The position numbers and the translations under genes are program-made. Under the pieces are notes generated by a model. The model saw only the letters and a program-made list of their open reading frames with translations. It was not told the origin of the DNA and did no database searches. From Hyphomicrobiales bacterium (GTDB lineage Bacteria; Pseudomonadota; Alphaproteobacteria; Rhizobiales; Rhizobiaceae), in contig UBYA01000001.1 of assembly GCA_900469615.1 (NCBI GenBank), forward strand, positions 62,001 through 126,000: DNA of 64,000 nt. The letters are read 5' to 3'. Below, in pieces: positions 16,752 through 34,832 of this stretch (positions are counted from its first letter, which is position 1; each line of letters starts with the position of its first letter).

Positions 16752-16758
16752 ACTGTCC

Positions 16759-16778: not shown

Positions 16779-16812
16779 CATTCCCAGCCTTAGCTAAAAC
16801 GGAGATCGACTT

Positions 16813-17763: not shown

Positions 17764-17773
17764 GGGCAGAACA

Positions 17774-18649
17774 ATGGCAATAACCACAGATGTTTTCGTT
17801 CCCTCGCGATCGGGCAACCGTGTCCTTGCACGTTTCATGCGCCATAAACTGGCGGTCATCGGCTTCGTGGTCGTCTGCCTGCTGATCCTTGCGAGTGTGT
17901 TCGGACCGGGCCTGATCCCATACGACCAGCTTCATATCGACCTCAGAGCCAGAAACGCACCGCCGTTTTCAGGCGCGCATATTTTCGGGACCGATCCGCT
18001 CGGGCGTGACGTTGCCGCGCGCCTGTTCATGGCGGGTCGCGTTTCGCTGGCAGCGGGGGTTGCGGCGATGGTCATCTCGACGATTGTCGGAACGGTCGTC
18101 GGGACCATATCGGGTTACTACGGCGGCCGGGTCGGCGCGGTGCTCATGCGCATCGTCGATGGATTTCTGGCCTATCCCAGCGTTTTCCTGATGCTGACGC
18201 TCGCCGCCTTCATCAAGCCCAGTCCTCTCATGATCACCGCCATCATTGCCGCAACCAGCTGGATGCAGGTGGCACGCGTCGTGGACGCCGAGGTTCGCTC
18301 CCTGCGGCATCGGGAGTTCGTGCTGGCCGCAACCATGCTCGGTCTCACGCCGAACCGGGTTATGTTCCGTGAAATCCTGCCGAACGTCATGGGTCCGGTC
18401 ATTGTTTCGGCGACGCTGACGATTGCCAATGCAATCCTGCTGGAGGCCTATATTTCCTTCCTGGGCTACGGCATTCAGCCGCCGCTGCCCTCCTGGGGAA
18501 ATATGCTGAACGGAGCGCAGCAGTATCTTCAGACCGCGCCCTGGCTTGCGATCGTGCCGGGGATTGCGATCACGCTGGCTGTAACCGGCTTCAATTTCAT
18601 CGGCGACGGTCTCCGTGATGCCCTCGATGTGCGGGGTGACGTGAAATGA
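17774..18649 (+). CDS. ABC transporter permease, DppC type
   Basis: Second inner-membrane permease, 291 residues. It has the DppC/OppC-type N-terminus with 'FMRHKLAVIGFVVVCLLILASVFGP', the hallmark 'HIFGTDPLGRDVAARLFMAGRVSL' and the EAA loop 'REFVLAATMLGLTPNRVMFREILPNVMGP'. Six membrane segments are visible, and the protein ends with the family-typical 'FIGDGLRDALDVR'. It pairs with the DppB-type permease just upstream. The stop overlaps the ATPase start (ATGA), so translation is coupled. Confidence 0.93.
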   Translation: MAITTDVFVPSRSGNRVLARFMRHKLAVIGFVVVCLLILASVFGPGLIPYDQLHIDLRARNAPPFSGAHIFGTDPLGRDVAARLFMAGRVSLAAGVAAMVISTIVGTVVGTISGYYGGRVGAVLMRIVDGFLAYPSVFLMLTLAAFIKPSPLMITAIIAATSWMQVARVVDAEVRSLRHREFVLAATMLGLTPNRVMFREILPNVMGPVIVSATLTIANAILLEAYISFLGYGIQPPLPSWGNMLNGAQQYLQTAPWLAIVPGIAITLAVTGFNFIGDGLRDALDVRGDVK

Positions 18650-20322: not shown

Positions 20323-20390
20323 TTGCGATCAGGCAACGAAATTTAATCGCTGAAACGACCAGCGCGCCAATGGGAACAGGAGACGGAGCG

Positions 20391-21557
20391 ATGACGTATG
20401 ATGCCGACATCGGCGTGGTGGGGCTGGGGGCCATGGGATGTATGACCGCCTGGCGTCTCGCCAAACGCAGCGTGAGCGTTCTGGGATGGGATCGTTTGGC
20501 CCCCGGCCACGACCAGAGCGCCTGCGGCGGCGAAAGCCGAATATTCAGGACGGCCTACAAGGAGGGACCTGCTTACGTTCCGTTATTGATCAAATCGCGT
20601 GAACTCTGGCGCGAACTCGAGGGCGAAACCGGGATCGACCTTCTCCATCTCGTCGGCGCATTGTCGATCGCGCACGAAGACAGCGACTACATGAGCAATG
20701 TCATTGCCTCCTGCCGCGACTACGAGATCGACCACGAAGTCCTGTCTCCAGCCCAGGTGAAGGAGCGATATCCCGTTCATACGCTTTACCGCGGCGAAGT
20801 TGCCGTCCTTGACCGTTGGGCAGGCTATGTGCGTCCGGATCGCGCAACGATGACAGCCGCACGGCGCGCCGAAGCGCTGGGGGCCGTGCTGCACCGATAC
20901 ACGCCGATCCGCGACATTCAGTTCGGGGCGGATGGAGCGACGGTCTGCTCCGATACCAAGGAATGGCGTGTGCGAAAGCTCGTGCTGACGCTGGGTCCGT
21001 GGACACGCCATCTTCTTCCTGCAACCGCCGAAAGCCACAAGCTGGTGCGGATCGTGCTTGCCTGGTATCGCACGGAAAACGAGGCTCGGTTTCGCGCCGA
21101 TGTCTTTCCGGTTCTCCTGCGTCTTTCGGGCGGCCTCGATTTCTGCGCGTGGCCGATCATCGACGGCGATACGATGAAGGTCGCTCGAAACGGATCGCAT
21201 GGCATCTTCGACGATGCCGCGAAGCTCGACCGCAACGTCAGCCCGGAATGGTTCGTTCGCTGGCGGCGGATGATCAGGGACTATCTGCCCGGCGTCATTC
21301 CCGATCCTGTCCGCATCGGCGCCTATATGGACAGTTGGACGGAGAGCGGCAACGCGGTCATCGACACCCATCCCGATTGTTCCAACCTGGTGACGCTCTA
21401 CGGCTTCTCCGGGCATGGCTTCAAGCTGTCGCCGATATTCGGCGAGATTGCCGCGAAACTGGCGCTGGAGGAAAAAACCGAACACGACCTGTCGATCTTC
21501 AAATCACCGAAGCTCGGACCCTTCGGCGCCATCCCGTGCGACGCGATGGCGCCATGA
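20391..21557 (+). CDS. SolA/monomeric sarcosine oxidase-like FAD oxidoreductase
   Basis: Flavoprotein of the DAO superfamily, 388 residues, closest in text to monomeric sarcosine oxidase and N-methyltryptophan oxidase, which oxidise the N-methyl group of an amino acid to formaldehyde and give the free amine. The FAD motif (GVVGLGAMG) is at the N-terminus, the oxygen-activating Lys equivalent to MSOX Lys265 is kept (TMKVARNG), and the C-terminal GFSGHGFK motif is intact. The Cys that binds FAD covalently in MSOX (Cys315, in CMYT) aligns with Tyr312 here, so the flavin is probably non-covalent. The ATG at 20391 has a good ribosome binding site (AGGAGACGGAGCG). Placement after a peptide-type importer suggests the imported compound is its substrate. 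Confidence 0.82.
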   Translation: MTYDADIGVVGLGAMGCMTAWRLAKRSVSVLGWDRLAPGHDQSACGGESRIFRTAYKEGPAYVPLLIKSRELWRELEGETGIDLLHLVGALSIAHEDSDYMSNVIASCRDYEIDHEVLSPAQVKERYPVHTLYRGEVAVLDRWAGYVRPDRATMTAARRAEALGAVLHRYTPIRDIQFGADGATVCSDTKEWRVRKLVLTLGPWTRHLLPATAESHKLVRIVLAWYRTENEARFRADVFPVLLRLSGGLDFCAWPIIDGDTMKVARNGSHGIFDDAAKLDRNVSPEWFVRWRRMIRDYLPGVIPDPVRIGAYMDSWTESGNAVIDTHPDCSNLVTLYGFSGHGFKLSPIFGEIAAKLALEEKTEHDLSIFKSPKLGPFGAIPCDAMAP

Positions 21558-21700
21558 AACCAGCAATCACTTTCCATCGCCGCGGATCGGGTTGAACCCG
21601 TTCACGGATGACGGCGCTCGCCGCCAAATCCTTGCACGTTCGGTCGCAAGCGGCCGCACGCGCCGGGAATGCCAGTATTCACTTTCTGAGGGGACTTCAT

Positions 21701-23023
21701 GTGACACGCTTTGCTCCATTCGATGAATCCTATTGGTACGCATCGGCTCCGCCGGCCCCGGAAACCGGGAGGCTCGCCGGCGAAAAGACCGCCGACGTCT
21801 GTGTCGTCGGCGCCGGTTATACGGGTCTGACGACCGCGATCGAACTTGCCCGCAAAGGCGTGTCGGTTGCCCTCATCGAGCGGCAGGAGGCCGGTTACGG
21901 CGGATCCGGCCGAAATGCCGGCCATTGCAGTCCCACCTTCTCCTACTATACCCTTGAAAAGGTGCGCTTGCTGTTGGGCGAACCTTGGGCCGAGCGGCTG
22001 ATCCGGCGTCAGACGCGGGCTGCGGACAAGGCCCGCGAATATATCAACCGGTATGGCATCGACTGCGAGTGGGTGCAGAATGGCCTGGTCATCGGGGCGA
22101 TGCGGCCCGGGCACATTCCGGCCCTGCAGCACAAGACCGAAAGCTACAATGCCGTCGGCGCGAAGACGCGCATGCTCGACCGCGACGAGGCGATCGCCAT
22201 CACCGGCTCGCCACGAATGCATGGTGGCTGGATCAACGAGGATGGCGCCCATCTGCATCCGCTGAAATATGCCCGTGGCCTGGCGCATGCGGCCATCTCC
22301 GAAGGGGTCGCTCTCTATACCGGCTCACCCGCCAACAACTGCGAGCGGCAGGGTGCCAAGTGGAAGGTCAGGAGCGACAGCGGCCATGTGATTGCCGACA
22401 AGGTGATCTTTGCGACCGGCGCCTACACGGTGGCCGGTTGGCCCGGCCTCGAAAAAAGCTATCGCATTCTGCCGATCTATGTCTGCGCCACCAACCGCCT
22501 TTCGGATCGGACGCGGGAGAGCGTGCTGCCACGCAACAATTCGATGATCGACGGGCGCGGCGATTTTTATTGCTACAAGTGGACGGCCGACAACCGCATC
22601 GTCGCTTCCATGTTCATCCTGGGCCAGCGGGGCAGGGACGCCGCCTATACGAAAAAAGTCATGGCCGACAAGCTGAAATGGCTTCATCCGCAGATCAGCG
22701 AGGAGATTACCTGGGACTATTACTGGTTCGGTGAACTCGACATGCAATACCGCACCGTGCCGCGGCTGTACGGATTGGCGCCCGGTGTCGTCGCGCTGAC
22801 CGGTCTTTCCGGGCGCGGCGTGCCGACAGGCACGATGCTTGGCGGCATCCTGTCGGACTGGGCCGTCGGCGTGCCCGAAAACGATCTGGACCTGCGCATC
22901 GAACCGCTGCATCAGGCGCCGCGCTGGATGGACTATGCGCCCAACTACAAGCTGCGCGAGATGCGTCTCGTCGACAATTTCATGAGCAAACGCGGCAATA
23001 TCGAACTCCCGCCGCACCACTGA
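21701..23023 (+). CDS. PuuB-like FAD-dependent oxidoreductase (DAO superfamily)
   Basis: Flavoprotein of 440 residues. It starts with the 'PFDESYWYASAPPAPETGRLAGEKTADVCVVGAGYTGL' arrangement typical of gamma-glutamylputrescine oxidase (PuuB) and related oxidases, in which a short leader precedes the FAD motif (GAGYTG). Other marks are ERQEAGYGGSGRNAG and the C-terminal 'LTGLSGRGVPTGTMLGGIL'. The GTG at 21701 is chosen because TGAGGGGAC sits six bases upstream. The natural substrate is probably an amino acid or amine with a free or acylated amino group; PuuB activity itself is not shown. It lies inside a run of four DAO-type genes with a cupin gene immediately downstream (15 bp). Confidence 0.82.
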   Translation: MTRFAPFDESYWYASAPPAPETGRLAGEKTADVCVVGAGYTGLTTAIELARKGVSVALIERQEAGYGGSGRNAGHCSPTFSYYTLEKVRLLLGEPWAERLIRRQTRAADKAREYINRYGIDCEWVQNGLVIGAMRPGHIPALQHKTESYNAVGAKTRMLDRDEAIAITGSPRMHGGWINEDGAHLHPLKYARGLAHAAISEGVALYTGSPANNCERQGAKWKVRSDSGHVIADKVIFATGAYTVAGWPGLEKSYRILPIYVCATNRLSDRTRESVLPRNNSMIDGRGDFYCYKWTADNRIVASMFILGQRGRDAAYTKKVMADKLKWLHPQISEEITWDYYWFGELDMQYRTVPRLYGLAPGVVALTGLSGRGVPTGTMLGGILSDWAVGVPENDLDLRIEPLHQAPRWMDYAPNYKLREMRLVDNFMSKRGNIELPPHH

Positions 23024-23038
23024 GGGAAAGGACAGGAC

Positions 23039-23386
23039 ATGACTATCTATCAGCGTATAGACGATGAGGCCGGCCGCAGCGAGGCGGCAATCGCCACCAA
23101 CGGCGCACAATCCTGGCGCCGCATGATCTGGTTGGATGAGGGCGAGGCCGATGCGGCCGCCAAGGTCGCCGTCTGGAGCGCGCAGCCGGGCCTTTACGCC
23201 TATCCGGCCCGCCCGCTCGCCGAAAGTTTCGTCGTCATGGAAGGCGAGGCGGATTGCCGAATTGCCGGCGGAGACGTTCGCAGGATCGGTCCCGGCGATA
23301 TCGTCAACGTGCCGGTCAACGCTCCGATTTCGCTCGAGGTTCTAAAGCCTTTCCGCAAATTTGCGATGGTGGTTCCGAAGGCTTGA
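23039..23386 (+). CDS. Small cupin-domain protein
   Basis: Single-domain cupin of 115 residues. The beta-barrel core is seen from 'PGLYAYPARPLAESFVVMEGEADCRIAGGDVRRIGPGDIVNVP', which matches the two cupin motifs (ES-F-V-V-EGEA for the strand with the Glu, GPGDIVNVP for the turn). The usual His-x-His metal ligands are not evident (PARPLAES replaces G-x-H-x-H), so it may lack a metal. EutQ- or DUF861-type cupins next to amine oxidases are common. A strong ribosome binding site (GAGGGAAAGGACAGG) precedes it. It probably has a binding or enzymatic role for the same substrate as the adjacent flavoenzymes, but this is inference. Confidence 0.8.
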   Translation: MTIYQRIDDEAGRSEAAIATNGAQSWRRMIWLDEGEADAAAKVAVWSAQPGLYAYPARPLAESFVVMEGEADCRIAGGDVRRIGPGDIVNVPVNAPISLEVLKPFRKFAMVVPKA

Positions 23387-23469
23387 CGACATGCCGGGCC
23401 GCGTGGATGACATGCGGCCCGGCCTCTATGGACACGCCATGGCGACAGGCCAATCAGCAGGAGCGCAAG

Positions 23470-24642
23470 ATGGATAAATTCGACGTTGCGGTTATCGGCG
23501 CAGGCATCACCGGCGTCGCGACGGCCTATGCATTGGCGAAGGGCGGCGCCAAGGTCGTCTTGATCGACCGGTTCGGACCCGCCGCCATGGCATCCGGCTG
23601 GACGCTTGCCGGCGTACGCCAATCCGGACGCCATCCGGCAGAGCTTCCGCTGGCGATGGAGGCGGTCGAAATCTGGCGGACGCTGCATGAAGAACTCGGC
23701 GCCCCGACGCAATACAGGCGCAAGGGAAACCTGCGGCTCGCCCGCAATGCCGATGAGTATGAGCAGATTCGCGCCATGGTCGCCAGCCAGCAGGCCTCGG
23801 GGCTCGATCTTACCTTCCTGCCCGGCAATGCCGATGTGCGCGCCATCGCGCCGGCGGTTTCGCCCGGCATCGTCGGGGCGTCCTTCTGCGCCACGGACGG
23901 TCATGCCGATCCGCAAGCGACAAGCGCGGCCTATATGGGCGCGCTGAAGCGGCTCGGCGTCACGATCGTCATGGCGGAAAAGGTCGAGGAGATCGGTGTC
24001 ACGGCCGGCAAGGTGAGCGGTGTGCGGACATCCGCGCGCAGCATGGCCGTCGACGGCGTCGTTCTGGCGGCAGGCGTCATGGGCAACGAACTTATGAAGC
24101 CGCTTGGGGTCTCCGTACCCATCGAGACGCCGATGGTCGCCGTCATCCGCAGCGTACCGATCGCGCCGGTCCTGGAGCAGGTCATCGGCGTCTCCGGGGG
24201 CGACTGGGCCGGGCGCCAGCAGGCCGACGGCCGGCTGCGGATCACCAGCGGCGCGCTTGCCTGGAACGGCGTCATGGATACGGTCCAGACCGATGCCGGC
24301 CCGCGGCCGGTCATCCGTCCACCGCTGTCCAGCCTGCGGGAGATCATCGAGAAACTAGACCACCTGCTTCCGGGCCTTGGCGCGACGCCGATTGAGGAGT
24401 GCTGGGCGGGGCTTCTTGACCTGACGCCGGATGCAATACCCGTTCTCGACCGCGTTCCCGGCATCGAGGGTCTCGTCGTCGGCATGGGCTTTTCCGGCCA
24501 CGGTTTCTGCCTCGGTCCGGTAACCGGGCGGATCCTCGCCGATCTGGTCAGTGGCCGCGCGCCGGGTCACGATTTGTCCTCCTTCACCTTTGACCGCTTC
24601 CGCGACACCGCCGCCGGCGGCCGGCTGGAGCTTCACGGCTAG
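23470..24642 (+). CDS. FAD-dependent oxidoreductase, glycine oxidase/DadA-like
   Basis: DAO-superfamily flavoprotein of 390 residues. The N-terminal dinucleotide motif is VAVIGAGITGVATAYALA, the second FAD-binding stretch is 'ASGWTLAGVRQSGRHPAELPLA' and the end carries the conserved DLTPDAIPVLD and MGFSGHGFCLGP motifs. It is most like the small beta subunit of heterotetrameric sarcosine oxidase and opine oxidase (OoxB/SoxB) or D-amino-acid dehydrogenases. The ATG at 23470 has AGGAGCG upstream. It is the third of four related flavoproteins in this unit, all divergent from one another, so they are not recent copies. Possible partners (opine oxidase alpha or gamma subunits) are not present nearby. 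Confidence 0.82.
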   Translation: MDKFDVAVIGAGITGVATAYALAKGGAKVVLIDRFGPAAMASGWTLAGVRQSGRHPAELPLAMEAVEIWRTLHEELGAPTQYRRKGNLRLARNADEYEQIRAMVASQQASGLDLTFLPGNADVRAIAPAVSPGIVGASFCATDGHADPQATSAAYMGALKRLGVTIVMAEKVEEIGVTAGKVSGVRTSARSMAVDGVVLAAGVMGNELMKPLGVSVPIETPMVAVIRSVPIAPVLEQVIGVSGGDWAGRQQADGRLRITSGALAWNGVMDTVQTDAGPRPVIRPPLSSLREIIEKLDHLLPGLGATPIEECWAGLLDLTPDAIPVLDRVPGIEGLVVGMGFSGHGFCLGPVTGRILADLVSGRAPGHDLSSFTFDRFRDTAAGGRLELHG

Positions 24643-24705
24643 CCGCCGATCCCGTAAAGCATCCTCTTCACTCTGCACATTCCTCAATCACGGAGCCTCA
24701 TCGCA

Positions 24706-26037
24706 ATGCCCGGTCCTTTTGTCGTCCCGTTCCATGGAGATACCGACCTTCCGGAAAAGGTCGATGTCGTCGTCATTGGCGGCGGTATCATCGGCGCCTC
24801 GACGGCGTTGGAGCTCGCAGAGCGCGGGCTGAAGGTGGCGCTGTGCGAGAAGGGCGGGATCGGCCACGAGCAGTCCAGCCGCAACTGGGGCTGGGTGCGG
24901 ATCACGCGCCGCGACCCGCGCGAAGTGCCGCTGATGGCCGAGGCGCTGCGCATATGGCCCGGCCTGAACGAAAAGCTCGGCCGCGACGTCGGCTATAACC
25001 GTGCCGGTATCACCTTCACCTGCCTGACGGAGAAGGAGGTGGAGGATAACCGCAGCTGGATGAAGAACCTCGAAGGCTACCAGATCGACACGAGGATGCT
25101 GACGCCCGAGCAATTCGCGGCGATGAATCCCGGTTCGCGGCTGGATATCAAGGGGGCGCTTTTCACCTCGGTCGATGGCCGGGCGGAACCGCAACGGGCA
25201 GCGCCGGCTATCGCCGAGGGCGCGCGCGACCGCGGTGCGCATGTTCTCACCGAGTGCGCCGTGCGCGGCATCGACCTGAAGGCGGGCAAGGTCTGCGGCG
25301 TCTTCACCGAGAGAGGATATATCGCCTGCGATGCGGCCGTCCTTGCCGGCGGCGCCTGGTCGAGCCTCTTTGCCGGCAATGCCGGCATCAGGCTGCCGCA
25401 GTTGAAGGTGATCAACTCGGTGGTGCGCACCAAGCCTTTCGAAGGCGGGCCGGAATCGGCGATCTGGACGAATGGCTTTGCCATCCGCAAGCGGCAGGAC
25501 GGTGGCTACACGGTCGCCAACGGCCTGGAGAACATCGTCGATGTCGTTCCCGACAGCTTCCGCTTCCTGCGTGATTTCCTGCCGGCGCTGGGGGCCGAGT
25601 GGCGTTCGCTGATCCTGCGAGGGGGAATGGCGTTTGTCGACGAGATGCGCATCCCCAGAAGATGGAAGATGGACGAGGCATCCCCCTTCGAATATTGCCG
25701 CGTCCTCGATCCGAAGCCGTCTTTCGACCTTCAGGACAAGGCGCTCGCCAACCTGCGCAAGGCGTTTCCGGCCTTCGAGAAGGCGAAAGTCGCGCAAAGA
25801 TGGGCCGGCAAGATCGACGTGACGCCGGATGCCGTCCCCGTCATTTCTCCGGTGGAGCAGACGCCCGGCTTCTACATTGCCACCGGTTTCTCCGGCCACG
25901 GTTTCGGCATCGGCCCGGCTGCGGGCCGGCTGATGGCCGATCTCGTCACCGGCGCGCCGCCGCTCGTCGATCCCCACGATTTCCGCTTCAGCCGCTTCAG
26001 CGATGGATCGAAAATCAGTATCATCAGCGGCTTTTGA
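24706..26037 (+). CDS. FAD-dependent oxidoreductase, D-amino-acid dehydrogenase-like
   Basis: Fourth DAO-type flavoprotein of the cluster, 443 residues. It has a short leader, then VVVIGGGIIGASTALELAERG (FAD motif) and 'SSRNWGWVRITRRDPREVPLMAEALRIW', a stretch typical of a rhizobial and pseudomonad DadA-like subfamily, and ends with KIDVTPDAVPVISP and TGFSGHGFGIGPAAG. It probably oxidises a D- or N-substituted amino acid and passes electrons to the respiratory chain or oxygen; the substrate is not known. It is the last gene of the plus-strand run and faces the minus-strand purine operon across a 190-bp gap that holds only a weak CCCG-TAAG-CGGG hairpin followed by GTTTCTCTC near 26046. Confidence 0.82.
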   Translation: MPGPFVVPFHGDTDLPEKVDVVVIGGGIIGASTALELAERGLKVALCEKGGIGHEQSSRNWGWVRITRRDPREVPLMAEALRIWPGLNEKLGRDVGYNRAGITFTCLTEKEVEDNRSWMKNLEGYQIDTRMLTPEQFAAMNPGSRLDIKGALFTSVDGRAEPQRAAPAIAEGARDRGAHVLTECAVRGIDLKAGKVCGVFTERGYIACDAAVLAGGAWSSLFAGNAGIRLPQLKVINSVVRTKPFEGGPESAIWTNGFAIRKRQDGGYTVANGLENIVDVVPDSFRFLRDFLPALGAEWRSLILRGGMAFVDEMRIPRRWKMDEASPFEYCRVLDPKPSFDLQDKALANLRKAFPAFEKAKVAQRWAGKIDVTPDAVPVISPVEQTPGFYIATGFSGHGFGIGPAAGRLMADLVTGAPPLVDPHDFRFSRFSDGSKISIISGF

Positions 26038-26227: not shown

Positions 26228-27139
26228 TTACCGCTCAAGCGGCTCGCCGAGTGACGCGACGCCGTTGAGCCTTAGCAAGCGGCGATCCGCGGAGATGATG
26301 CCGAGGACGACAATCGTCACGAGATAAGGAAGGCATGCAAGCAATTGCGATGGGACGGAAAGTCCGGTCGCCTGTGCCGCAAGCCCCATCAGCGATACCG
26401 CACCGAACAGGCAGGCACCCAGGAAAATCCTGGATGTCAGCCAGGTTCCAAAGACAACGAGGGCAATGGCAATCCAGCCCCGCCCGGCGATCATGCCGTC
26501 CGCCCAGAGCGGCGTGTAGATCGTCGAGGCATAGGCACCGGCAAAGCCGGCCATCATGCCACCGAACGTAACTGCGGCGAAGCGGATCGAGACAATGGGA
26601 TAGCCGATGGCGTGCGCGGCTTTCGGATTTTCACCGACGGCGCGGAGGATAAGACCGACTTTGCTATAGGCAAACAGCGCCCATATGCCGATCGTCACGA
26701 CAAGCGAGATCCAGACGACGATATCCTGGCTGAAGAGGCCCCCGACGACCGGAATTTGTGAAAGCCCGGGAATTGCGATCTTTGGCAGCGTCGTGACGGT
26801 CAGGCTCTCATAATTCTTGCCGAACAGCGCGGAGAGGCCCTGGCCGAGAATGCCGAGCGCAAGACCGGCTGCAACCTGGTTCGCGTTGAAGCCCAGCGTG
26901 ATACCGGCAAAAATCATGGAGAGGAGCGCGCTTCCGAAACCGGCTGCAAGGAAAGCGAGAAAATGGCCGCCGCCATGATAAACGACAATGAACGCAATGG
27001 CGGCGCCAACTGCCATCAAGCCTTCCACGCCGAGGTTCAGGACGCCCGCGCGTTCAGCGACGAGTTCGCCCAGGGCTGCCAGCAGAAACGGCGTTGCGGC
27101 TGCCAGCATGCCGGCAAGAATGAACTCGATGGCGCTCAT
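26228..27139 (-). CDS. BMP-type (nucleoside/purine) ABC permease, second subunit
   Basis: Inner-membrane permease of the BPD_transp_2 class, 303 residues, about eight helices. The family mark is 'ERAGVLNLGVEGLMAVGA' near residues 28-45 (the YufQ/NupQ and RbsC-like motif), then 'GFNANQVAAGLALGILGQGLSALFG' and 'RAVGENPKAAHAIGYPI'. It is the last gene of the eight-gene minus-strand operon; its start overlaps the stop of the first permease (ATGA). Together with the ATPase, the other permease and the BMP-family binding protein it makes a complete importer of the type that takes up nucleosides or purines in other bacteria. Confidence 0.93.
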   Translation of the reverse strand: MSAIEFILAGMLAAATPFLLAALGELVAERAGVLNLGVEGLMAVGAAIAFIVVYHGGGHFLAFLAAGFGSALLSMIFAGITLGFNANQVAAGLALGILGQGLSALFGKNYESLTVTTLPKIAIPGLSQIPVVGGLFSQDIVVWISLVVTIGIWALFAYSKVGLILRAVGENPKAAHAIGYPIVSIRFAAVTFGGMMAGFAGAYASTIYTPLWADGMIAGRGWIAIALVVFGTWLTSRIFLGACLFGAVSLMGLAAQATGLSVPSQLLACLPYLVTIVVLGIISADRRLLRLNGVASLGEPLER

Positions 27140-28236
27140 GATGCGCTCCGAACGGATATGGGGCGCCAGACGATGCGATAGCGCACGAAGGCGACGGCGA
27201 TGAGATAGATGAGGAGCAGGCTGCCCTGAAACACGCGGACGGCTGCGATCGGCAGATTGGCGGAGACCATGGCGTTATCGCCACCGATATAGAGCGCTGC
27301 CATGACGATCGCCGAGATGACGATGCCGATTGGGTTGAGGCCGCCAAGATAGGCAACGATGATTGCCGCGTACCCATATCCGGTCGAAATCGACCGCTGC
27401 AGCTGACCAAGCGGGCCGGCCACTTCAGCCGCCCCCGCAAGCCCGGCCGCCGCTCCGCCAAGGATCAGCGAAAGCCAGATTGCCCAGCTCTCCTTGAAGC
27501 CGGCATAGCTCGCCGCCCGGGGGGCCAGGCCGCCGACCTGCAATTTATACCCGGCGAAGCTCTTCTGCATGAAGATCCATGCCGCGACCGACAGCGCGGC
27601 AGCGAGGATAAGCGAGACGTTGACGCGGGTTCCCTCAAACAGGATCGGTATCGTCGCATCGTACTGGAACATGACCGACTGCGGGAAATTGAAGCCGTTC
27701 GGGTCTTTCCATGGGCCGAGAAGAAGATAGTTGAGCAATTGCGCGGCAACGAAGCTCAGCATCAGGGAGACGAGGATTTCATTGGCGTTGAACCTGACGC
27801 GCCAGAAGGCGGTGAGAGACGCCCATAGAGCGCCGCCGAGGGTGCCGAGCAGCAGCATTGCGGGCCACATCCACTGGCCCGTTGCCTGCGGCATCCAGAT
27901 GGGTATGGCGGAGGCGAAGATTGCGCCAAGAATGAATTGGCCTTCGGCGCCGATGTTGAAGACCTTCGCGCGAAAGCCGATTGCGAGCCCCTGTGCGATC
28001 AGAAGCAGGGGACCGGTCTTCAGCAACACTTCCGAGAATGAGGCCCATGAGATGAATGGTTCGATCAGCATGGCATAGATCACGGCTGCCGGATCACGAC
28101 CCATGACGATATAAAGGCCGAGATTGAGTGCGATGGTGACGATGAGGGCGATCGGCGGCGCGAGCATCTTTGCCGCGAACGAGGCTCGATCGCGGCGGAC
28201 CAGAGCGGGGAGGACTGCGGAAAAGGAGCTGCTCAT
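27136..28236 (-). CDS. BMP-type (nucleoside/purine) ABC permease, first subunit
   Basis: Inner-membrane permease of 366 residues, the YufP/NupP counterpart. After a 30-residue cytoplasmic leader it shows about nine helices, with the motif 'GFRAKVFNIGAEGQFILGA' near residues 90-110, 'FRVRFNANEILVSLMLSFVA' and 'YGYAAIIVAYLGGLNPIG', all conserved in this permease class. Its start and stop codons overlap the ATPase gene and the second permease gene respectively, which indicates a single translationally coupled unit. Substrate choice is set by the binding protein, which belongs to the purine-nucleoside (BMP) family. Confidence 0.93.
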   Translation of the reverse strand: MSSSFSAVLPALVRRDRASFAAKMLAPPIALIVTIALNLGLYIVMGRDPAAVIYAMLIEPFISWASFSEVLLKTGPLLLIAQGLAIGFRAKVFNIGAEGQFILGAIFASAIPIWMPQATGQWMWPAMLLLGTLGGALWASLTAFWRVRFNANEILVSLMLSFVAAQLLNYLLLGPWKDPNGFNFPQSVMFQYDATIPILFEGTRVNVSLILAAALSVAAWIFMQKSFAGYKLQVGGLAPRAASYAGFKESWAIWLSLILGGAAAGLAGAAEVAGPLGQLQRSISTGYGYAAIIVAYLGGLNPIGIVISAIVMAALYIGGDNAMVSANLPIAAVRVFQGSLLLIYLIAVAFVRYRIVWRPISVRSAS

Positions 28237-29756
28237 GCGGATACCTTTTCGCGTTGAGGCTGCGCACCGATCATGTACCGGCCGATGTCTTCGGGTTTCG
28301 TATCGCGGGTGACAAGTGGCGGGCTCAGCGTGCCGTGGTAAAGGACCTGGATGACGTCGCTGAGCGCGAACAATTCCTCGAGCTCTTCCGATATGACGAG
28401 AATTGCCATACCCTGATTGCGCAGCTCGATCAGCCGCTTGCGAATGGCGGAGGCCGCGCCGACATCGACGCCCCAGGTTGGCTGCGCAAGAAACAGCAGT
28501 TTAGGAGCGAGCATGATTTCGCGGCCGACGATGAACTTCTGCAGGTTTCCCCCCGAAAGCGACCCGGCTTCAGCCTCCGGACCGCGCGTACGCACGTCAC
28601 AATCCCGGATGCATTCGTTTGCGAAGCCGGTTGCCTTCGCATTGTCGATGAGGCCATGCTTGACGAGCTTCAAGGGATGGGCCGTCAGCAGGCTATTGAG
28701 CGTCAGCGACATTTCGGGAACCGCGCCGTGCCCGAGCCGATCCTCCGGAACAAAGGCAAAGCCGAGCTTTCGCCGACTGGCGGCATCGAGATTGCCCACA
28801 TCCCGTCCCATCATGAAGATCTGGTCGCGCCTGTCTCGGGGCAGGGTTGTTTCCCCCGAAACCAGTGCGGCAAGCTCCTTCTGTCCATTTCCCGAAATGC
28901 CGGCAATGCCCAGAATCTCGCCGCTGCGCACGCTGAGGCTGATGGTGGCGAGCGGTATGCCGAAAGGATCGTCCGGCCGGTAATCGAGGCCAATGATCTC
29001 CAGGCGCTTTTCACCCTCGACCATAGGCAAAGCGGGTATTGCTTCCGGCATGTCGCGGCCGATCATCATGCGGGCGAGACCATGGGCGTCATGCTCGCGC
29101 GGATCCACATGCCCGGTCACGCGCCCACCGCGCAGGATCGTGGCACGGTCGCACAGAGACTGGATCTCCTCCAGCTTGTGCGAGATGAAGAGGATCGATA
29201 CGCCGCCGTCGCGCAGCCGACGCAGCGTATCGAACAGCTTCTCGACGGCTTGCGGCGGCAGGACCGATGTCGGCTCGTCGAGGATCAGCAGTTTCGGATC
29301 GGTCATCAGGCAGCGGATGATTTCCACCCGTTGCCGCTCGCCGACCGACAGCTCATGCACATGGGCCAGCGGATCGACTTCAAGTCCGAATTCATCGCCC
29401 AGCGTACGGATGCGCCGCACGAGTTCGGCCCGGCGGCCGGAGACGATCAGGCGAATGTTTTCGACAACCGTCAGACTCTCGAACAGGGAGAAATGCTGAA
29501 AGACCATCCCGATGCCGGTACGCCTCGCCTCCGCGGGGGAGGCAAGGCTGAGCGGCTTTCCATGCCAGGCGATAGTTCCGTCATCCGGCTGTTCGACTCC
29601 GTAGATCAGCTTCATCAGGGTCGATTTGCCGGCGCCGTTTTCTCCGAGGACGGCATGGATCGAGCCCGGTGCTACATCCAGATCGATATGCTGGTTGGCA
29701 TGGACCTGGCCATAGCTTTTGGAAATGCCGCGCAGCGACAGGAGCGGGATGGTCAT
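28233..29756 (-). CDS. BMP-type (nucleoside/purine) ABC ATPase, double domain
   Basis: ATPase of 507 residues with two nucleotide-binding domains in tandem, as in sugar and nucleoside importers (YufO/NupO/RbsA class). The first domain has a full Walker A (GENGAGKST, about residue 39), signature LSVGERQRVEI and Walker B LLILDEPTSVL. The second domain has the usual degenerate P-loop of this class (GISGNGQKEL) and an intact LSGGNLQKFIVGRE signature, with LFLAQPTWGVDVGAAS replacing the Walker B acidic residues. Only one site is therefore expected to hydrolyse ATP, which is normal for the family. It lies 7 bp after the binding-protein gene and overlaps the permease gene by four bases. Confidence 0.94.
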   Translation of the reverse strand: MTIPLLSLRGISKSYGQVHANQHIDLDVAPGSIHAVLGENGAGKSTLMKLIYGVEQPDDGTIAWHGKPLSLASPAEARRTGIGMVFQHFSLFESLTVVENIRLIVSGRRAELVRRIRTLGDEFGLEVDPLAHVHELSVGERQRVEIIRCLMTDPKLLILDEPTSVLPPQAVEKLFDTLRRLRDGGVSILFISHKLEEIQSLCDRATILRGGRVTGHVDPREHDAHGLARMMIGRDMPEAIPALPMVEGEKRLEIIGLDYRPDDPFGIPLATISLSVRSGEILGIAGISGNGQKELAALVSGETTLPRDRRDQIFMMGRDVGNLDAASRRKLGFAFVPEDRLGHGAVPEMSLTLNSLLTAHPLKLVKHGLIDNAKATGFANECIRDCDVRTRGPEAEAGSLSGGNLQKFIVGREIMLAPKLLFLAQPTWGVDVGAASAIRKRLIELRNQGMAILVISEELEELFALSDVIQVLYHGTLSPPLVTRDTKPEDIGRYMIGAQPQREKVSA

Positions 29757-29763
29757 GACCTGA

Positions 29764-30864
29764 TTACTTCGGCAAAGGCGTCTTCACACCTTTGACATGC
29801 CAGTCCATCGCGACGATCTGCGCATCCGTGAGTGTCGCGCCGGAAGCCACGCCTTCGCTGCCGTCGGCCTTGGCGATCGGACCTGTAAACGGCGAAAAGT
29901 TGCCGCTTCCGATCTTCGCCTCGACCTCCTTGATCTTTGCCATCGTGTCCGCCGGGATCGCCGGGTTCCAGTCGACGACTTCGACGACCTTGTCCGCGAC
30001 GCCGAGGAAGGCGTTGGCACCTTTGAAGGTCCCGGCGAGATGGGCGTCGACCGATGCCTTGAAGAAGGGCGACCAGTCCGTGGAGATGCAGCCGAGATAG
30101 GTTTTCGGCGCGTATTTCTTCATCGATGAGTTCAGGTTGAAGGCATAGACACCGGCAGCCTCGCAAGCGGAAATGACCGAGGGCGTATCCTGCGCGTTCG
30201 AGAAGATCACGTCGCACCCCTGCGAGATCAAAGCCTTGGCCGCCTCCTGCTCCTTGGCCGGATCGAACCAGGAGTTGACCCAGACGACCGATACCTCGAT
30301 GTCCGGCTTCACGGCCTGCGCTCCGAGCGTGAAGGCGTTGATTGACGTGATCAGTTCGGGAATCGCAAATGCGGAAACCGAACCGAGCTTGCCGGTCTTG
30401 GAGACTGCGGCTGCCGCCATGCCGAGCAGATAGGTCCCTTGAAAATACTTGGCGGCGAAGGGCGAGAAATTCGGCGCGACCTGGAAGCCGGAGGCATGCA
30501 GGACGGTTATCTTCGGGTTGCGGCGGGCAATCTGAAGCGCGCCGTTCTGATAGCCGAACGAGCCCGCGATCAGGAAGTGATTGCCGTCGGCGACCGTCTT
30601 GTTCATGATGCGGTCCGCGTCCGGGCCTTCGGCAATGTTCTCGATCACCGTCACCTTGACCTTGTCGCCATAGGCGGCCTTGATGGGCTCGAGGCCCGCA
30701 GCCAGCGCATGTCCCCAGCCGACATCTCCGATGGGCGAGGGCACGACGAGCGTGATGCCGAGAGGTTCGTCGGCGGCGAAAGCGGAGCGGCCGGTAAAGG
30801 CCGTTGCGAGGCCTGCAACGGCCGCGCTCTTCATCAATGTTCTGCGGGTCAGATTTTTCTGCAT
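29764..30864 (-). CDS. BMP-family periplasmic binding protein for nucleosides or purines
   Basis: Solute-binding protein of the BMP/Med (PnrA-like) family, 366 residues, which in characterised members binds purine nucleosides. The N-terminus is a twin-arginine signal (NLTRRTLMKSAAVAGLA) with likely cleavage after AFAA. Family features are 'PIGDVGWGHALAAGLEPIKAAYG' (the Trp near the first lobe contacts the nucleobase in PnrA), 'NSWFDPAKEQEAAKALISQGCDVIF' and 'STDWSPFFKASVDAHL'. A good ribosome binding site (AAGGGGAAC) precedes the ATG. The gene sits between an amidohydrolase of the oxopurine group and the importer genes, which supports a purine-type ligand, perhaps a methylated one given the oxygenase genes upstream. 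Confidence 0.92.
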   Translation of the reverse strand: MQKNLTRRTLMKSAAVAGLATAFTGRSAFAADEPLGITLVVPSPIGDVGWGHALAAGLEPIKAAYGDKVKVTVIENIAEGPDADRIMNKTVADGNHFLIAGSFGYQNGALQIARRNPKITVLHASGFQVAPNFSPFAAKYFQGTYLLGMAAAAVSKTGKLGSVSAFAIPELITSINAFTLGAQAVKPDIEVSVVWVNSWFDPAKEQEAAKALISQGCDVIFSNAQDTPSVISACEAAGVYAFNLNSSMKKYAPKTYLGCISTDWSPFFKASVDAHLAGTFKGANAFLGVADKVVEVVDWNPAIPADTMAKIKEVEAKIGSGNFSPFTGPIAKADGSEGVASGATLTDAQIVAMDWHVKGVKTPLPK

Positions 30865-30886
30865 CCCAGTTCCCCTTTTTGGTTTT

Positions 30887-32266
30887 TCAGAATTCTACTG
30901 TCGCAAGCGCTGCCTCGGCCGCGGCAAACAGCGCGGCTTCGTCCAGTCCCGTGAATTCGCCGTCCTGCCAGGCGATACGTCCGTTGATCATGGTCAGATC
31001 GGTGGGCATGCCGATACCGACCTTGGCAATCAGGCTCAGCGGGTCATGCCGCGTCCCGACATAATCCATCCGTCGCGTATCGATCGCAAAGAGATCGGCC
31101 GCCATGCCCGGAGCGAGACGACCGATATCGGTGCGCCCGAGCAGGCTTGCGCCTCCGCTTGTCGCATAGTGCAGAAAATCGAGCGGGGCGGGGACGGGGT
31201 GCCGACGCGTCGAGGCTGTCAGGCACTGCAGCATGTAGGCGGAATGGATGCAATGCATCAGGTTCGAGTTGTCGTTCGATGCCGCTCCGTCGCAACCAAG
31301 GCCAATCCGCAAGCCGAAAGCCTGCATCGCCGGAATATCGGTCACTTCGGCGCCGACCAGGTAGACCGGCTCCGGGCAATGGGAAACGCCGGTTCCGCTT
31401 GCCGCCATTTTGCGCAACTCGTCGTGCGTCAGCTCCCAGCAATGGGCATAAAAGGTATCCGGGCCTGCAAAGCCCAATTCGGCGCAGTAGTCGACCGTGC
31501 GCATGCCATGCCGCGCCTCGATGACGGGGCTTTCGCCTTCGCCGACATGCGTATGGAGCTGCACGCCGCGATCGCGCGCCAGCGAGACCGACTCGGTGAA
31601 GGTTTCGCGGTAGCAATTGACCGGCTGGCAGGGTGCGATCACCACCTGACGCATGCTGAAGGGGCCGGCATCGTGATAGCCGTCGATCAGCCGTGCGCAA
31701 TCGGCGATGAATTCATCCGTGGTTTCGAGCATGGCGTCCGGGATCGTCGAGCCTTCGGACTTCGGCAGGGTATTGCCGCCGCGCCCTGCGTGAAAGCGCA
31801 TTCCGAGCAATTCCGCCGCTTCGAACTGGCGATCGATCAGCCGCTTTCCCGCGTGGCGAGGAAAGCAATATTGATGGTCGAAGGCGGTCGTGCAGCCGTG
31901 CTTGATCATCTCGGCCATTGCGGTCACTGAAGAATGATAGAAGCAATCCTCCGTCAGCCGCGAAAAGATCGGATAGATCCGGTCCAGCCATTCGATGACG
32001 GAAAGCTTCGTCCAGTCGAGATCGGCCCGATTTCGCACGAAGCACTGAAAGAAGTGATGATGGGTGTTGACGAGCCCCGGATAGACGAACCAGCCGGATG
32101 CGTCCTTGACGATGGTGTTCTCGGGTAATGCGTTCAGCGACAGGTTCTCCCCGATCGCCTGGATCGCCGGACCCTTCGTGAGCAGGTCGACGTTTCGCCG
32201 CACGCCCGGTCCACTGCCTTCATCGACGATAACCGCCGCACAATTCTTCAGGAGATAGCCGGTCAT
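30887..32266 (-). CDS. Amidohydrolase, 8-oxoguanine deaminase-like
   Basis: Cytoplasmic metal-dependent deaminase of the COG0402 amidohydrolase group, 459 residues. Visible ligands are the first metal motif in 'PGLVNTHHHFFQCFVRNR' (residues about 63-80), 'QLHTHVGEGE' (second His), 'YAHCWELTHDE' (third His) and 'LGCDGAASNDNSN' (the catalytic Asp). The HHHFFQ text and the flanking sequence are those of 8-oxoguanine deaminase and related TrzN/AtzB-like enzymes. The expected reaction is hydrolytic removal of an amino group from a guanine-type base (8-oxoguanine to urate in studied members). Linkage to a purine-type importer and an oxygenase suggests a purine with an extra oxo or methyl group. The exact substrate is inference. 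Confidence 0.85.
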   Translation of the reverse strand: MTGYLLKNCAAVIVDEGSGPGVRRNVDLLTKGPAIQAIGENLSLNALPENTIVKDASGWFVYPGLVNTHHHFFQCFVRNRADLDWTKLSVIEWLDRIYPIFSRLTEDCFYHSSVTAMAEMIKHGCTTAFDHQYCFPRHAGKRLIDRQFEAAELLGMRFHAGRGGNTLPKSEGSTIPDAMLETTDEFIADCARLIDGYHDAGPFSMRQVVIAPCQPVNCYRETFTESVSLARDRGVQLHTHVGEGESPVIEARHGMRTVDYCAELGFAGPDTFYAHCWELTHDELRKMAASGTGVSHCPEPVYLVGAEVTDIPAMQAFGLRIGLGCDGAASNDNSNLMHCIHSAYMLQCLTASTRRHPVPAPLDFLHYATSGGASLLGRTDIGRLAPGMAADLFAIDTRRMDYVGTRHDPLSLIAKVGIGMPTDLTMINGRIAWQDGEFTGLDEAALFAAAEAALATVEF

Positions 32267-32270
32267 TCCA

Positions 32271-32927
32271 TTATTTCTCCCCTGCCGGATGCGGATCGGG
32301 TTTCAGTTCGTGCAGGCGATGGATGCCGGGCATCTCGATGAAGCCCGGCAGGCTGCGGATGGCGCGCATCCAGAGCCGGATCAAGGGGTAGGGATCAAGC
32401 GAGATGCCGCCGTCAGGCGCGAGTGCCACGTAGGGGAAGCAGGCGATATCGGCGATGGTCGCCCGGTTTGCCGCAAGGAATTGCATGCCGCGCTCGCCCT
32501 GTTCGAAGAGGCCTGCTTCAAGTTCGCGCAGTGCCGCGATCCCCTGCACCCGCAAAGCCTTGATGTCCCCAGGACGCAGAAGCATTTCGTGAAGCCGCGC
32601 GCCGCCAAGGTTCGCCGTCAGGCGATGCGAAAAGGAGAGCCATTGCTGCACGCGCGCCGTTTCCCGCGGTGAGCCATGACCCAGCCATTCCGGCGCAGCA
32701 TCGGCGGCGAGATAGGCAAGCATTGCCGAGGACTCTGTGAGCACGAGATCGCCGTCTTCGAGGATCGGGATGGAGCCCGCCGGATTGAGCGCCAGCAGCT
32801 CCGGCCCGCGATGCTCGGCCCCGGGATGGAAGTCGACCGGCCGGATTTCGAGCTCGATGCCCAGGATGGCGGCCATGAGCCGTACCTTGTAGCAGCTGGG
32901 CGACAGAACATAATCGTAGAGTTTCAT
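32271..32927 (-). CDS. Glutathione S-transferase-like protein (NdmE-like context)
   Basis: GST-fold protein of 218 residues: an N-terminal thioredoxin-like domain (KLYDYVLSPSCYKVRLMAAILG; conserved NPAGSIPIL with the cis-Pro, then ESSAML binding the glutathione gamma-glutamyl end) and an all-helical C-terminal domain with 'ATIADIACFPYV', the N-capping box motif. The likely catalytic or structural residue is Ser11 or Cys12. Its ATG overlaps the oxygenase stop by four bases. In Pseudomonas putida CBB5 a GST homologue, NdmE, is an obligate part of the NdmCDE complex that removes the N7-methyl group of 7-methylxanthine; the same gene partnership is seen here. Whether it is a structural partner or a true transferase cannot be told. 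Confidence 0.85.
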   Translation of the reverse strand: MKLYDYVLSPSCYKVRLMAAILGIELEIRPVDFHPGAEHRGPELLALNPAGSIPILEDGDLVLTESSAMLAYLAADAAPEWLGHGSPRETARVQQWLSFSHRLTANLGGARLHEMLLRPGDIKALRVQGIAALRELEAGLFEQGERGMQFLAANRATIADIACFPYVALAPDGGISLDPYPLIRLWMRAIRSLPGFIEMPGIHRLHELKPDPHPAGEK

Positions 32928-33769
32928 TGTGCGACCAACTGTGCGCCGTAGGTATAATTGTGGCGCTTGAGCCATCGCCGGTAAGCGACCGAAGTGAGGT
33001 CGGCCCTTGTCGGGATTTCCATGCCGGGATCGAGCGGAAGAAGCGCGGGTATCTGGTTCTCGAGGATCGAGCGATCCTGCAGGAAGATCGTCTGCTGAAA
33101 GTGGATGAGATCCGTCATCGGCGTTTCGTCATCGAAGAGCGCCATCCACGGCCACACGTCGCATACGTCTTCGGCAAGAGGCTGGACGAACAGGGTTATG
33201 ACGTCCCATTCGCTGGGTCGCGGAGGGCATGTCTTGTAGAGTACCGAACAGGTCGGTGCCGGCACGCGATACATGTACTCGGTGGTGATGCCGCCAGTTG
33301 CCGATTTTGCAGCCTGCGGCTGGTAGAACTTCACCTGCGTTGCCCATACCTCATCCTCGCTCTCGCGAATCTCGACCTTGTAGTTTTCGACCTCGGTGTG
33401 CGGCTCGGCACCGAGGATATCGGTGTGGACGAAGGGAAAATGCGCGATGTCGAGGAAGTTCTCGACCGCGCGAAGCGGCGAGCAGCGCACGCGCACCACG
33501 CCGACATCGACGAAGCGCCGCCCCGGCTGATCGGCCTCCGGAATGGCGAAAAGCTCCTTCTCCGGCTTTCCGAGGGAGGACCAGACATGGCCATACCGGA
33601 CGCAAACGGGGAGGGCTCTTCCCTCGGCGGTCGCCACCCGCGCATTCCCATCCAGATCGCGCGCGACCTCGATCGCCTCGCCCATCAGCCAGGTCTTGCT
33701 TCCTTTCTCGCCGAGCTGGCTGAAGAGGCCGACCGGATACCATTCGTCGATCATCGCGCCGCCTTTCAT
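32924..33769 (-). CDS. Rieske-type oxygenase catalytic subunit lacking its 2Fe-2S ligands (NdmC-like)
   Basis: Mononuclear-iron oxygenase of 281 residues. The C-terminal catalytic domain is complete: N104-x2-D107-x2-H110-x4-H115 (ENFLDIAHFPFVH) gives the bridging Asp and two His ligands, and D232 in FLQDRSILENQ is the third ligand. The N-terminus starts like a ring-hydroxylating oxygenase (DEWYPVGLFSQLGEK), but the part that should hold the Cys-x-His and Cys-x2-His cluster ligands is missing; the text runs from GNARVATAEG straight to LPVCVRYGHVW. NdmC of the caffeine pathway has the same unusual build and depends on a Rieske domain supplied in trans. Here such a domain is coded by the directly upstream, overlapping gene. 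The expected reaction is an N- or O-demethylation. Confidence 0.85.
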   Translation of the reverse strand: MKGGAMIDEWYPVGLFSQLGEKGSKTWLMGEAIEVARDLDGNARVATAEGRALPVCVRYGHVWSSLGKPEKELFAIPEADQPGRRFVDVGVVRVRCSPLRAVENFLDIAHFPFVHTDILGAEPHTEVENYKVEIRESEDEVWATQVKFYQPQAAKSATGGITTEYMYRVPAPTCSVLYKTCPPRPSEWDVITLFVQPLAEDVCDVWPWMALFDDETPMTDLIHFQQTIFLQDRSILENQIPALLPLDPGMEIPTRADLTSVAYRRWLKRHNYTYGAQLVAQ

Positions 33770-34428
33770 TCCGCAGTCTCCCTATGGCGCTCTTCCGCCG
33801 TGCGGCGAAGGGATTCGACAATCCGGGACGCCGCAACGCGGTCTGCCGGACTGCGATCCTTTTCGATCATGAGAAGAATGAGCGTATGCTTCTCCTGGGG
33901 CGCCAGCAGCAGCCCGATCCAGGGAAATTCAGGCAGACAGATCAGCCCGTGCTTGTCGATCTTCGCTCCGGCCGCATCCTCGATCGCCGCAATATCCGTT
34001 TCCACCGTTAGCGAGCGCAGCGGTATGAGCCCATTGAGCTTCGGAGGCTGCGTTGCCGGTTGCCCGACGGCTACCCACAAGATGCCATCAGCCTCTTCGA
34101 CCTGCCGGACGGCGACACGGATGGTTTCCGGCGGAACCAGATCGGGATGGGCGGGAATGCGAATGCATGCGCCCGAGAGGGAATAGCTCCATCCGTGATA
34201 GATGCAGGACAGGGCCTCGCCGCGAACGAAGCCATGCGACAATCTCATTCCGCGATGCGGACAGCGATCCGACGATGCGGTTGCGCGGCCCGACTGACTG
34301 CGCCACAGGGCAATCGGGCCAATCGAAGTCCAGGCCGGTATGACAGTTGCTGGTGGCAGATCAGCGGAAAGGGCGACTGGCGCCCAGGATTCCGGCCCAT
34401 CATGTGGCATGGCCTTCACTCTCTTCAT
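33766..34428 (-). CDS. Rieske 2Fe-2S protein, probable trans electron donor of the adjacent oxygenase
   Basis: Protein of 220 residues with an N-terminal Rieske domain. The cluster ligands are complete: C56-x-H58 (RCPHRG) and C75-x2-H78 (SCIYHGW), 16 residues apart as in oxygenase-type Rieske domains. The C-terminal 110 residues look like the start of an oxygenase catalytic domain but show no iron-binding Asp/His set, flavin or ferredoxin motif, so it is neither a full oxygenase nor an NdmD-type reductase. It overlaps the cluster-less oxygenase gene by four bases; together the two supply one complete Rieske oxygenase. A second in-frame ATG at 34410 preceded by GAAGG is an alternative start. 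A reductase to feed it is not in the window. It is the first gene of the purine-type operon. Confidence 0.85.
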   Translation of the reverse strand: MKRVKAMPHDGPESWAPVALSADLPPATVIPAWTSIGPIALWRSQSGRATASSDRCPHRGMRLSHGFVRGEALSCIYHGWSYSLSGACIRIPAHPDLVPPETIRVAVRQVEEADGILWVAVGQPATQPPKLNGLIPLRSLTVETDIAAIEDAAGAKIDKHGLICLPEFPWIGLLLAPQEKHTLILLMIEKDRSPADRVAASRIVESLRRTAEERHRETAE

Positions 34429-34547: not shown

Positions 34548-34832
34548 TCAGGAATCCCTAAGATGGGATGTTTCCGGATCATTCACGACCCTGCGCTGAA
34601 TCTCTTCGACCCAGACGTCGATCGGTCCAAGTGAGCAGCCTATTTCCAACATGTCGATTAGTTCGACAGGCCCGGTAACCTCAAGCTCGATCCGGTCCGC
34701 GTCAGAATGAACGAATGTCTGTGACAGCCCGAGCTTGCTGGCGTGGCGTTGTATCCACGGAAGAAACGAGGCTGAATTGATATTGCCGAGAATTGTCACA
34801 TGTTCGCGCAACTCGTCCAACCGTAGCGACAT
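34548..34832 (-). CDS. Acylphosphatase-like protein lacking the catalytic Arg and Asn
   Basis: Small protein of 94 residues that reads along its length like acylphosphatase: HVTILGNI (first strand), 'FLPWIQRHASKLGLSQTFVHSDADRIELEVTGP' (helix, strands 2 and 3), and 'GPIDVWVEEIQ' (last strand). In true acylphosphatases the P-loop GxVQGVGFR holds the catalytic Arg and the following V-x-N the catalytic Asn; here these positions are Leu24 and His42/Ser43, so hydrolytic activity is not expected. A weak ribosome binding site (AAAGGT) lies upstream of the ATG. It is a lone gene upstream of the purine-type operon, on the same strand, separated from it by 119 bp. A binding role is possible; the function is unknown. 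Confidence 0.6.
   Translation of the reverse strand: MSLRLDELREHVTILGNINSASFLPWIQRHASKLGLSQTFVHSDADRIELEVTGPVELIDMLEIGCSLGPIDVWVEEIQRRVVNDPETSHLRDS

Follow-up and report, generated by a model that had tools for sequence, protein, structure and literature searches.

We analysed a 64,000-nucleotide window of a Rhizobiaceae genome (forward-strand positions 62,001 to 126,000 of contig UBYA01000001.1, assembly GCA_900469615.1; 6.55 Mb in 55 contigs) and found on its minus strand a tightly packed operon of eight genes, numbered here from g8 (upstream) to g1 (downstream). With a probability that we put at about 0.6, the operon imports methylated guanines and converts them to xanthine by hydrolysis at N2 and oxidative N-demethylation of the ring. 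This proposal is built on gene order, homology, active-site residues and predicted folds, from which we infer the imported ligand, the substrate of an oxygenase trio (g8, g7 and g6), the order of the steps and the role of a small ninth gene, g9. Its central element is the amidohydrolase g5, which by sequence belongs with the recently described hydrolases of N2,N2-dimethylguanine.

The operon and its putative NdmH-type hydrolase

The eight genes lie at positions 26228-34428 and are separated, from g8 to g1, by -4, -4, 4, 22, 7, -4 and -4 bp. The second value holds when the glutathione S-transferase (GST) homologue g6 is started at Met17 (32927), and becomes -52 if the first ATG of the full open reading frame (32271-32975) is used. 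In the same order, the products carry a Rieske domain, a VanA_C domain without a Rieske domain, a GST, an amidohydrolase and a Bmp domain, a double ATP-binding cassette (ABC) ATPase and two BPD_transp_2 domains. A sequence-only reading of this DNA had described eight tightly packed minus-strand genes with these domains; the packing (gaps of -4 to 22 bp) and the domain assignments were confirmed, except for the finer identity of the amidohydrolase. The operon probably begins one gene earlier, at g9, which shares the strand of g8 and lies 119 bp upstream of it; the sequence-only reading had taken account neither of g9 nor of the lack of a reductase gene. Because other genomes, from more than one genus, keep the gene order and strand, the grouping of the eight genes is not due to chance.

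NdmH enzymes, reported in ACS Catal in 2026 and including poNdmH of Pleomorphomonas oryzae, release dimethylamine from N2,N2-dimethylguanine, which they favour 150-3600 fold over guanine (PMC13054789). The accessible sections of that paper name for poNdmH the catalytic residues Q74, E243, H275 and D326, the substrate-flanking residues W85, W93, Y98, Y133 and P300, and the CQNN residues C213, Q214, N217 and N165, where AtzB has SSII; they describe the physiological context of NdmH as still under investigation. The same sections give no accession for poNdmH, and we took it to be P0348, an amidohydrolase of P. oryzae, because the species is the same, the numbering fits and the single other match in that genome is distant (28%). 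The g5 protein aligned with P0348 at 81% identity without gaps, and all 13 residues named for poNdmH stood at their published numbers in both, so that g5 differed from poNdmH at none of them. Among the 120 g5 matches listed, 12 of the 13 positions were invariant and Q74 was present in 119; each CQNN residue was found in 120/120. By these sequence features, g5 is an NdmH-type hydrolase rather than an 8-oxoguanine deaminase. The latter resemblance, proposed in the sequence-only reading, was not borne out: g5 reached 370.6 bits against the best NCBIfam model, that of 8-oxoguanine deaminase (NF006055), short of the cut-off of 532, and this score together with the NdmH residues excluded it as a candidate. 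AtzB was likewise excluded by the presence of CQNN in place of SSII, and the chain that we take to be isoxanthopterin deaminase (2paj) scored below chains 7ww2 and 3hpa among PDB matches. Since hydrolysis by NdmH frees dimethylamine, this reaction rather than the oxygenase would deal with at least one of the methylated substrates.

The accessible sections on NdmH contain no gene neighbourhood; one is supplied here. Among 14 genomes of what we take to be the genus Pleomorphomonas, five encoded NdmH at 80% identity or more. At the locus taken to be that of P0348 (L191, genome G574), the genes ran from g8 to g1 in the same order, with identities of 53, 80, 67, 81, 83, 75, 74 and 78%, and the remaining four NdmH loci also contained all eight genes. 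The same eight are annotated in Rhizobium etli, and all were present in three more genomes of the window's family (NdmH at 67, 67 and 76%); the operon is thus conserved across more than one genus and family. In a plasmid search from which records of the window's own genome may be missing, g7 was most similar to proteins of Rhizobium tropici CIAT 899 (96% identity) and of Rhizobium sp. CB3060 (94%). In a survey of 199 genomes of the family, NdmH was detected in 16 (E ≤1e-100) and a g7 relative in 43 (E ≤1e-60). The g7 gene lay within 0.8 kb of NdmH in 15/16 of the NdmH genomes, and each of the 15 genomes whose g7 reached at least 59% had NdmH next to it.

Table 1. Genes and residues of the operon, in window positions
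Feature	Position	Strand	Domain or motif
g9, degenerate acylphosphatase-like protein, 94 aa, putative first operon gene	34548..34832	-	
g8, stand-alone Rieske [2Fe-2S] protein, 220 aa, counterpart of the NdmD N-terminal module	33766..34428	-	
g8 cluster ligands Cys56, His58, Cys75, His78	34195..34263	-	motif
g7, NdmC-like non-haem iron oxygenase without Rieske cluster, 281 aa	32924..33769	-	
g7 Asp107 (bridging), His110 and His115 (iron ligands)	33425..33451	-	
g7 third iron ligand, Asp232	33074-33076	-	
g6, GST homologue in NdmE position, start placed at Met17	32271..32927	-	GST_N
g5, NdmH-type N2,N2-dimethylguanine hydrolase (assigned by sequence), 459 aa	30887..32266	-	
g5 CQNN codons (Asn165, Cys213, Gln214, Asn217)	31616..31774	-	
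g4, BMP/PnrA-family periplasmic binding protein, AtzT relative	29764..30864	-	PF02608
g3, importer double ABC ATPase	28233..29756	-	PF00005 twice
g2, importer permease	27136..28236	-	PF02653
g1, importer permease	26228..27139	-	PF02653

Convergent with the operon, the plus strand carries at 15096-26037 an ABC importer of peptide type, made up of an SBP_bac_5 protein, two permeases and a double ATPase, and with it a cupin and four FAD-dependent DAO oxidoreductases. This set is probably unrelated to the operon, because it is absent within 15 kb of the R. etli operon. An open reading frame of 2830 codons lies further off on the same strand (4616-13108).

The oxygenase trio and the acylphosphatase-like protein

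The link of the oxygenase and GST to NdmC and NdmE, drawn earlier in the sequence-only reading, was supported by our comparisons. The g7 protein was 45% identical over 275 residues to the Pseudomonas putida methylxanthine N7-demethylase M1EY73, which we took as NdmC, and in a quick tree of 62 rows it grouped with NdmC, apart from the full-length Rieske oxygenases, with a branch support of 98. The Rieske motif was found in 0/30 rows of the g7 alignment, g7 and P0136 included, and residues D107, H110, H115 and D232 were identical in 30/30 rows; by their spacing, which follows that of naphthalene dioxygenase, they presumably act as the bridging residue and the iron ligands. The g8 protein matched NdmD-type N-termini with an E-value of 2.6e-47, and each of its Rieske ligands was identical in 21/21 aligned rows. 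Foldseek returned for g8 the same families as VIA-align. From the predicted folds, g7 and g8 are each a Rieske oxygenase that has lost the metal site retained by the other, and they divide what a single chain covers in SxtT (with GxtA a Rieske oxygenase of the saxitoxin pathway), whose Rieske half aligned with g8 and whose catalytic half aligned with g7. The g6 protein was 40-41% identical to three GSTs in NdmE position; on its own this says little, because the best paralogue within its own genome reaches 38% (80.6 bits).

According to the accessible parts of two reviews, NdmCDE acts on the ring nitrogen N7 and NdmE is thought to be structural (PMC4408171, PMC10380055). The trio resembles NdmCDE of P. 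putida CBB5 in having a cluster-less oxygenase, an adjoining GST homologue and a Rieske module homologous to that of NdmD. In contrast to NdmD, where that module is fused to a flavin/ferredoxin reductase, the module is separate here, a gene for an acylphosphatase-like protein lies ahead of it, and the oxygenase falls in a separate clade. Because the Rieske protein stands alone (220 aa) and the locus has no reductase, we did not class the trio as an NdmCDE complex. Caffeine loci such as L102 differ further, having NdmA/B-like oxygenases and a xanthine-type permease in place of a guanine-base hydrolase and a BMP importer.

The g9 protein scored 21.8 bits against PF00708, just below the gathering cut-off of 22.5; 12 of 24 members of its family matched PF00708 at E ≤0.1, and the family profile found acylphosphatases in the PDB with a best E-value of 3.6e-6. 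The position that we take to hold the catalytic arginine of acylphosphatases, after a conserved loop phenylalanine, is Leu24 in g9, and is arginine in 2/24 family rows (L165 and L167). PADLOC returned nothing for g9, and a literature search, from which subscription journals were for the most part absent, found nothing joining acylphosphatase-like proteins to Rieske demethylases. As a guess, g9 may stand in for contacts that the fusion provides in NdmD.

Related loci, importer and electron supply

We collected 121 loci with a g7 or NdmC relative and sorted them by the partner Rieske gene into 65 split, 49 fused and 7 other loci. L069-L073 (distant full-length oxygenases) and the duplicates L097, L113, L123 and L173 were left out before counting, L216-L220 entered no tally, and L068 and L098, counted as split, are probably fused, the one showing a 595-aa partner and the other a contig end. 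Tallies were made by tblastn, presence meaning a match at any distance within the stretch fetched for the locus, which was mostly 20 kb long, and 20 stretches at fixed positions in three genomes served as controls. A g9-like gene lay directly upstream of the Rieske gene in 58/65 split, 0/49 fused and 0/7 other loci and was found in 0/20 control stretches; its queries were drawn from earlier matches, which lay almost without exception ahead of split Rieske genes, and strongly diverged forms at fused loci could therefore have escaped the search. Besides L068 and L098, five split loci lack it at that place: L053 and L067 have a match elsewhere in the locus, and L054, L122 and L168 gave no g9-like match anywhere in the locus.

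A g6-like GST accompanied both architectures (64/65 split, 48/49 fused). Guanine-type deaminases (of NdmH, 8-oxoguanine-deaminase or GuaD type) were present in 39/65 split versus 2/49 fused loci (controls 0/20), adenine deaminases in 19/65 versus 2/49 (0/20), xanthine-type permeases in 1/65 versus 13/49 (0/20) and BMP proteins in 47/65 versus 30/49 (2/20). The guanine-type deaminases of split loci and, in fused loci, the xanthine-type permeases and FrmA or FrmB (18/49) speak for the pathway proposed below. Fisher's test of split architecture against guanine deaminases gave a small p value; however, the counts are not independent evidence, because the association comes from one part of a tree of 53 of the 121 loci, retained after thinning, the tree needs only 3 changes of architecture, and an independent-pairs test with 2 pairs on supported branches left significance out of reach. 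At sister loci, the L159 protein scored above the 8-oxoguanine deaminase cut-off (604 bits) and the L167 protein above that for guanine deaminase (413.6 bits).

Several loci deserve mention in their own right. Adenine-deaminase-type genes in split loci (L112, L120, L141, L167 and others) hint at methylated adenines as further substrates, and in genome G671 a trio stands with GuaD- and Ade-type genes (L220, where the g7 relatives are more distant) on a contig that also carries, at another place, an NdmH gene (L219). On a conjugative P. putida plasmid (L089, 7551-20959), an NdmC-like oxygenase, an NdmD-type fusion and a GST are accompanied by hpxO, by a full-length Rieske oxygenase and by a nucleobase symporter. 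A conjugative plasmid of Komagataeibacter nataicola from kombucha (L090, 8905-15456) carries two trios of Rieske protein, cluster-less oxygenase and GST, together with a separate VanB-type reductase and NdmA/B-like oxygenases, and is a candidate split methylxanthine system from a caffeine-rich habitat. At L060 (9140-10930), two tandem NdmC paralogues (43-46% to g7) precede one NdmD-type fusion, and comparable pairs occur elsewhere in the family; such paralogues are possibly heteromeric or different in specificity.

The sequence-only reading had also proposed a purine-type importer, which the binding protein supports. The g4 protein aligned over residues 32-366 with AtzT (6pi5; E 2.8e-80), a protein that was purified with guanine bound and has a KD of about 110 nM, according to the accessible part of the report (PMC6834077). 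It retains 6 of the 9 named guanine-pocket residues, with the aromatic pair kept as Trp50/Trp199, the change from tyrosine to tryptophan being conservative and two further positions being altered. Elsewhere, the genome encodes two guanine deaminases and two xanthine dehydrogenases above cut-off, and g5 is therefore not needed for plain guanine; uricase of type PF01014, the only urate-oxidising type searched for, was not found. With regard to electron supply, a VanB-type reductase is encoded separately and adjoins the split trio in four inspected loci (L053, L090, L150 and L162), and the tblastn tally gave a reductase in 6/65 split loci. The window's genome has five PF00175 matches, of which three also show the motif of plant-type ferredoxins.

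Proposed pathway and its alternatives

We propose that the g4-g1 importer would carry guanine-like bases into the cell, where g5 would convert N2,N2-dimethylguanine to xanthine and dimethylamine and, acting on 7-methylguanine or N2,N2,7-trimethylguanine, would leave a methylxanthine. The methylpurine would then be bound at the mononuclear iron of g7 and its methyl group would leave as formaldehyde, with electrons arriving from the Rieske cluster of g8, itself supplied by a reductase encoded elsewhere. The g6 protein would hold the complex together, as proposed for NdmE, g9 would serve the split version as an additional component without catalytic function, and the xanthine formed would pass to xanthine dehydrogenase. 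Both 7-methylguanine and N2,N2,7-trimethylguanine would employ the two enzymes in series, via 7-methylxanthine, a substrate of NdmCDE. The class of substrate named in the sequence-only reading, methylated guanine, is supported. A more specific form of the pathway, advanced tentatively and unlikely to hold in full, is that the operon is dedicated to N2,N2,7-trimethylguanine, the base of the eukaryotic snRNA cap, and related RNA bases; NdmH would take the N2-dimethylamine, and a four-part split assembly (g9-like protein, Rieske protein, cluster-less oxygenase and GST) the N7-methyl group, again by way of 7-methylxanthine.

Several observations weigh against the methylated-guanine pathway. Once NdmH has acted, N2,N2-dimethylguanine needs no demethylase. 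The NdmH of G671 (87%; L219, 8475-9800) has neither a trio nor an importer beside it. Of the 43 genomes of the family that encode a g7 relative, 27 have a more distant one and no NdmH at E ≤1e-100; trio and NdmH are therefore not tied to each other outside this clade. In the g7 tree, g7 lies in a different sub-clade from NdmC, and the position demethylated may therefore differ, and the only assay that we found in the accessible literature was of CBB5 NdmCDE, with none of any split trio. The operon encodes no reductase, and the candidates in the genome share 23-28% identity with the two reductases used as queries. Compared with AtzT, which binds guanine and 2-hydroxyatrazine, g4 has Trp50 for Tyr45, Asp226 for Asn220 and Ser174 for Asn169. 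As for formaldehyde, no glutathione-dependent formaldehyde dehydrogenase (FrmA) above cut-off was found in the genome (best 286/544 bits), and FrmA or FrmB was present in 4/65 split versus 18/49 fused loci (controls 0/20). The lack of independence among the survey counts, noted above, belongs here as well.

That no formaldehyde sink is evident in the genome would equally favour a different chemistry, namely that the trio hydroxylates a purine ring carbon in the manner of HpxD, the molybdenum-cofactor-independent xanthine hydroxylase, turning guanine or xanthine into 8-oxoguanine or urate. Relatives annotated as HpxD did appear in the plasmid search (H58-H60; 29-31% over 62% of the query); however, g7 is far closer to NdmC (45%, 275 residues) and shares its loss of the Rieske motif, the genome already has its two xanthine dehydrogenases, and g5 falls short of the 8-oxoguanine deaminase model (370.6 vs 532) and carries the NdmH residues, which together make this reading quite improbable. 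We are similarly doubtful of a system confined to N2, in which NdmH would serve N2,N2-dimethylguanine and the trio would oxidatively demethylate N2-methylguanine. The preference of NdmH enzymes for the dimethylated base and the guanine-type deaminases found with 39/65 split trios are consistent with it, but NdmCDE works on the ring nitrogen N7, and an oxidative route for N2-methylguanine would be redundant, because enzymes of the AtzB cluster, as the accessible part of the NdmH paper states, also cleave -NHR (PMC13054789). The names of some close g5 homologues in databases (hydroxyatrazine ethylaminohydrolase) and the relatedness of g4 and g5 to AtzT and AtzB-type chains bring to mind s-triazines or another xenobiotic; yet g5 has the CQNN of NdmH and not the SSII of AtzB, and an operon shared by more than one genus, and by more than one family, is old next to atrazine, so that such a role is very improbable indeed.

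In the accessible parts of earlier reviews, one of them from 2015, ndmCDE homologues of unknown function were noted, mainly in Sinorhizobium and Mesorhizobium (PMC4408171, PMC10380055). The sequence-only statement that no rhizobial system of this make-up had been described therefore stands for the function, but not for the clusters themselves. Within the limits of the literature search given above, we found no paper that brings NdmH together with a BMP importer and with a split NdmC, none on 7-methylguanine with Rieske enzymes, 7-methylguanine as sole nitrogen source or dimethylguanine in rhizobia, and only PMC13054789 on a dimethylguanine hydrolase.

The operon places NdmH, whose class of enzymes was published in 2026, in a genetic setting, and it suggests a possible function for the rhizobial ndmCDE-like clusters noted earlier without one. 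Methylated guanines released as RNA and DNA turn over may, on this view, supply nitrogen to plant-associated bacteria and to those of soil. As an assembly, the oxygenase would be unusual: two homologous proteins with complementary metal sites would be joined by a GST and by a small protein characteristic of the split form. Should the dedicated trimethylguanine pathway hold, a rhizosphere bacterium would feed on plant or fungal RNA caps, and the trio with g9 would represent a new type of oxygenase, its one active centre formed by a pair of half-dead Rieske oxygenases that complement each other.

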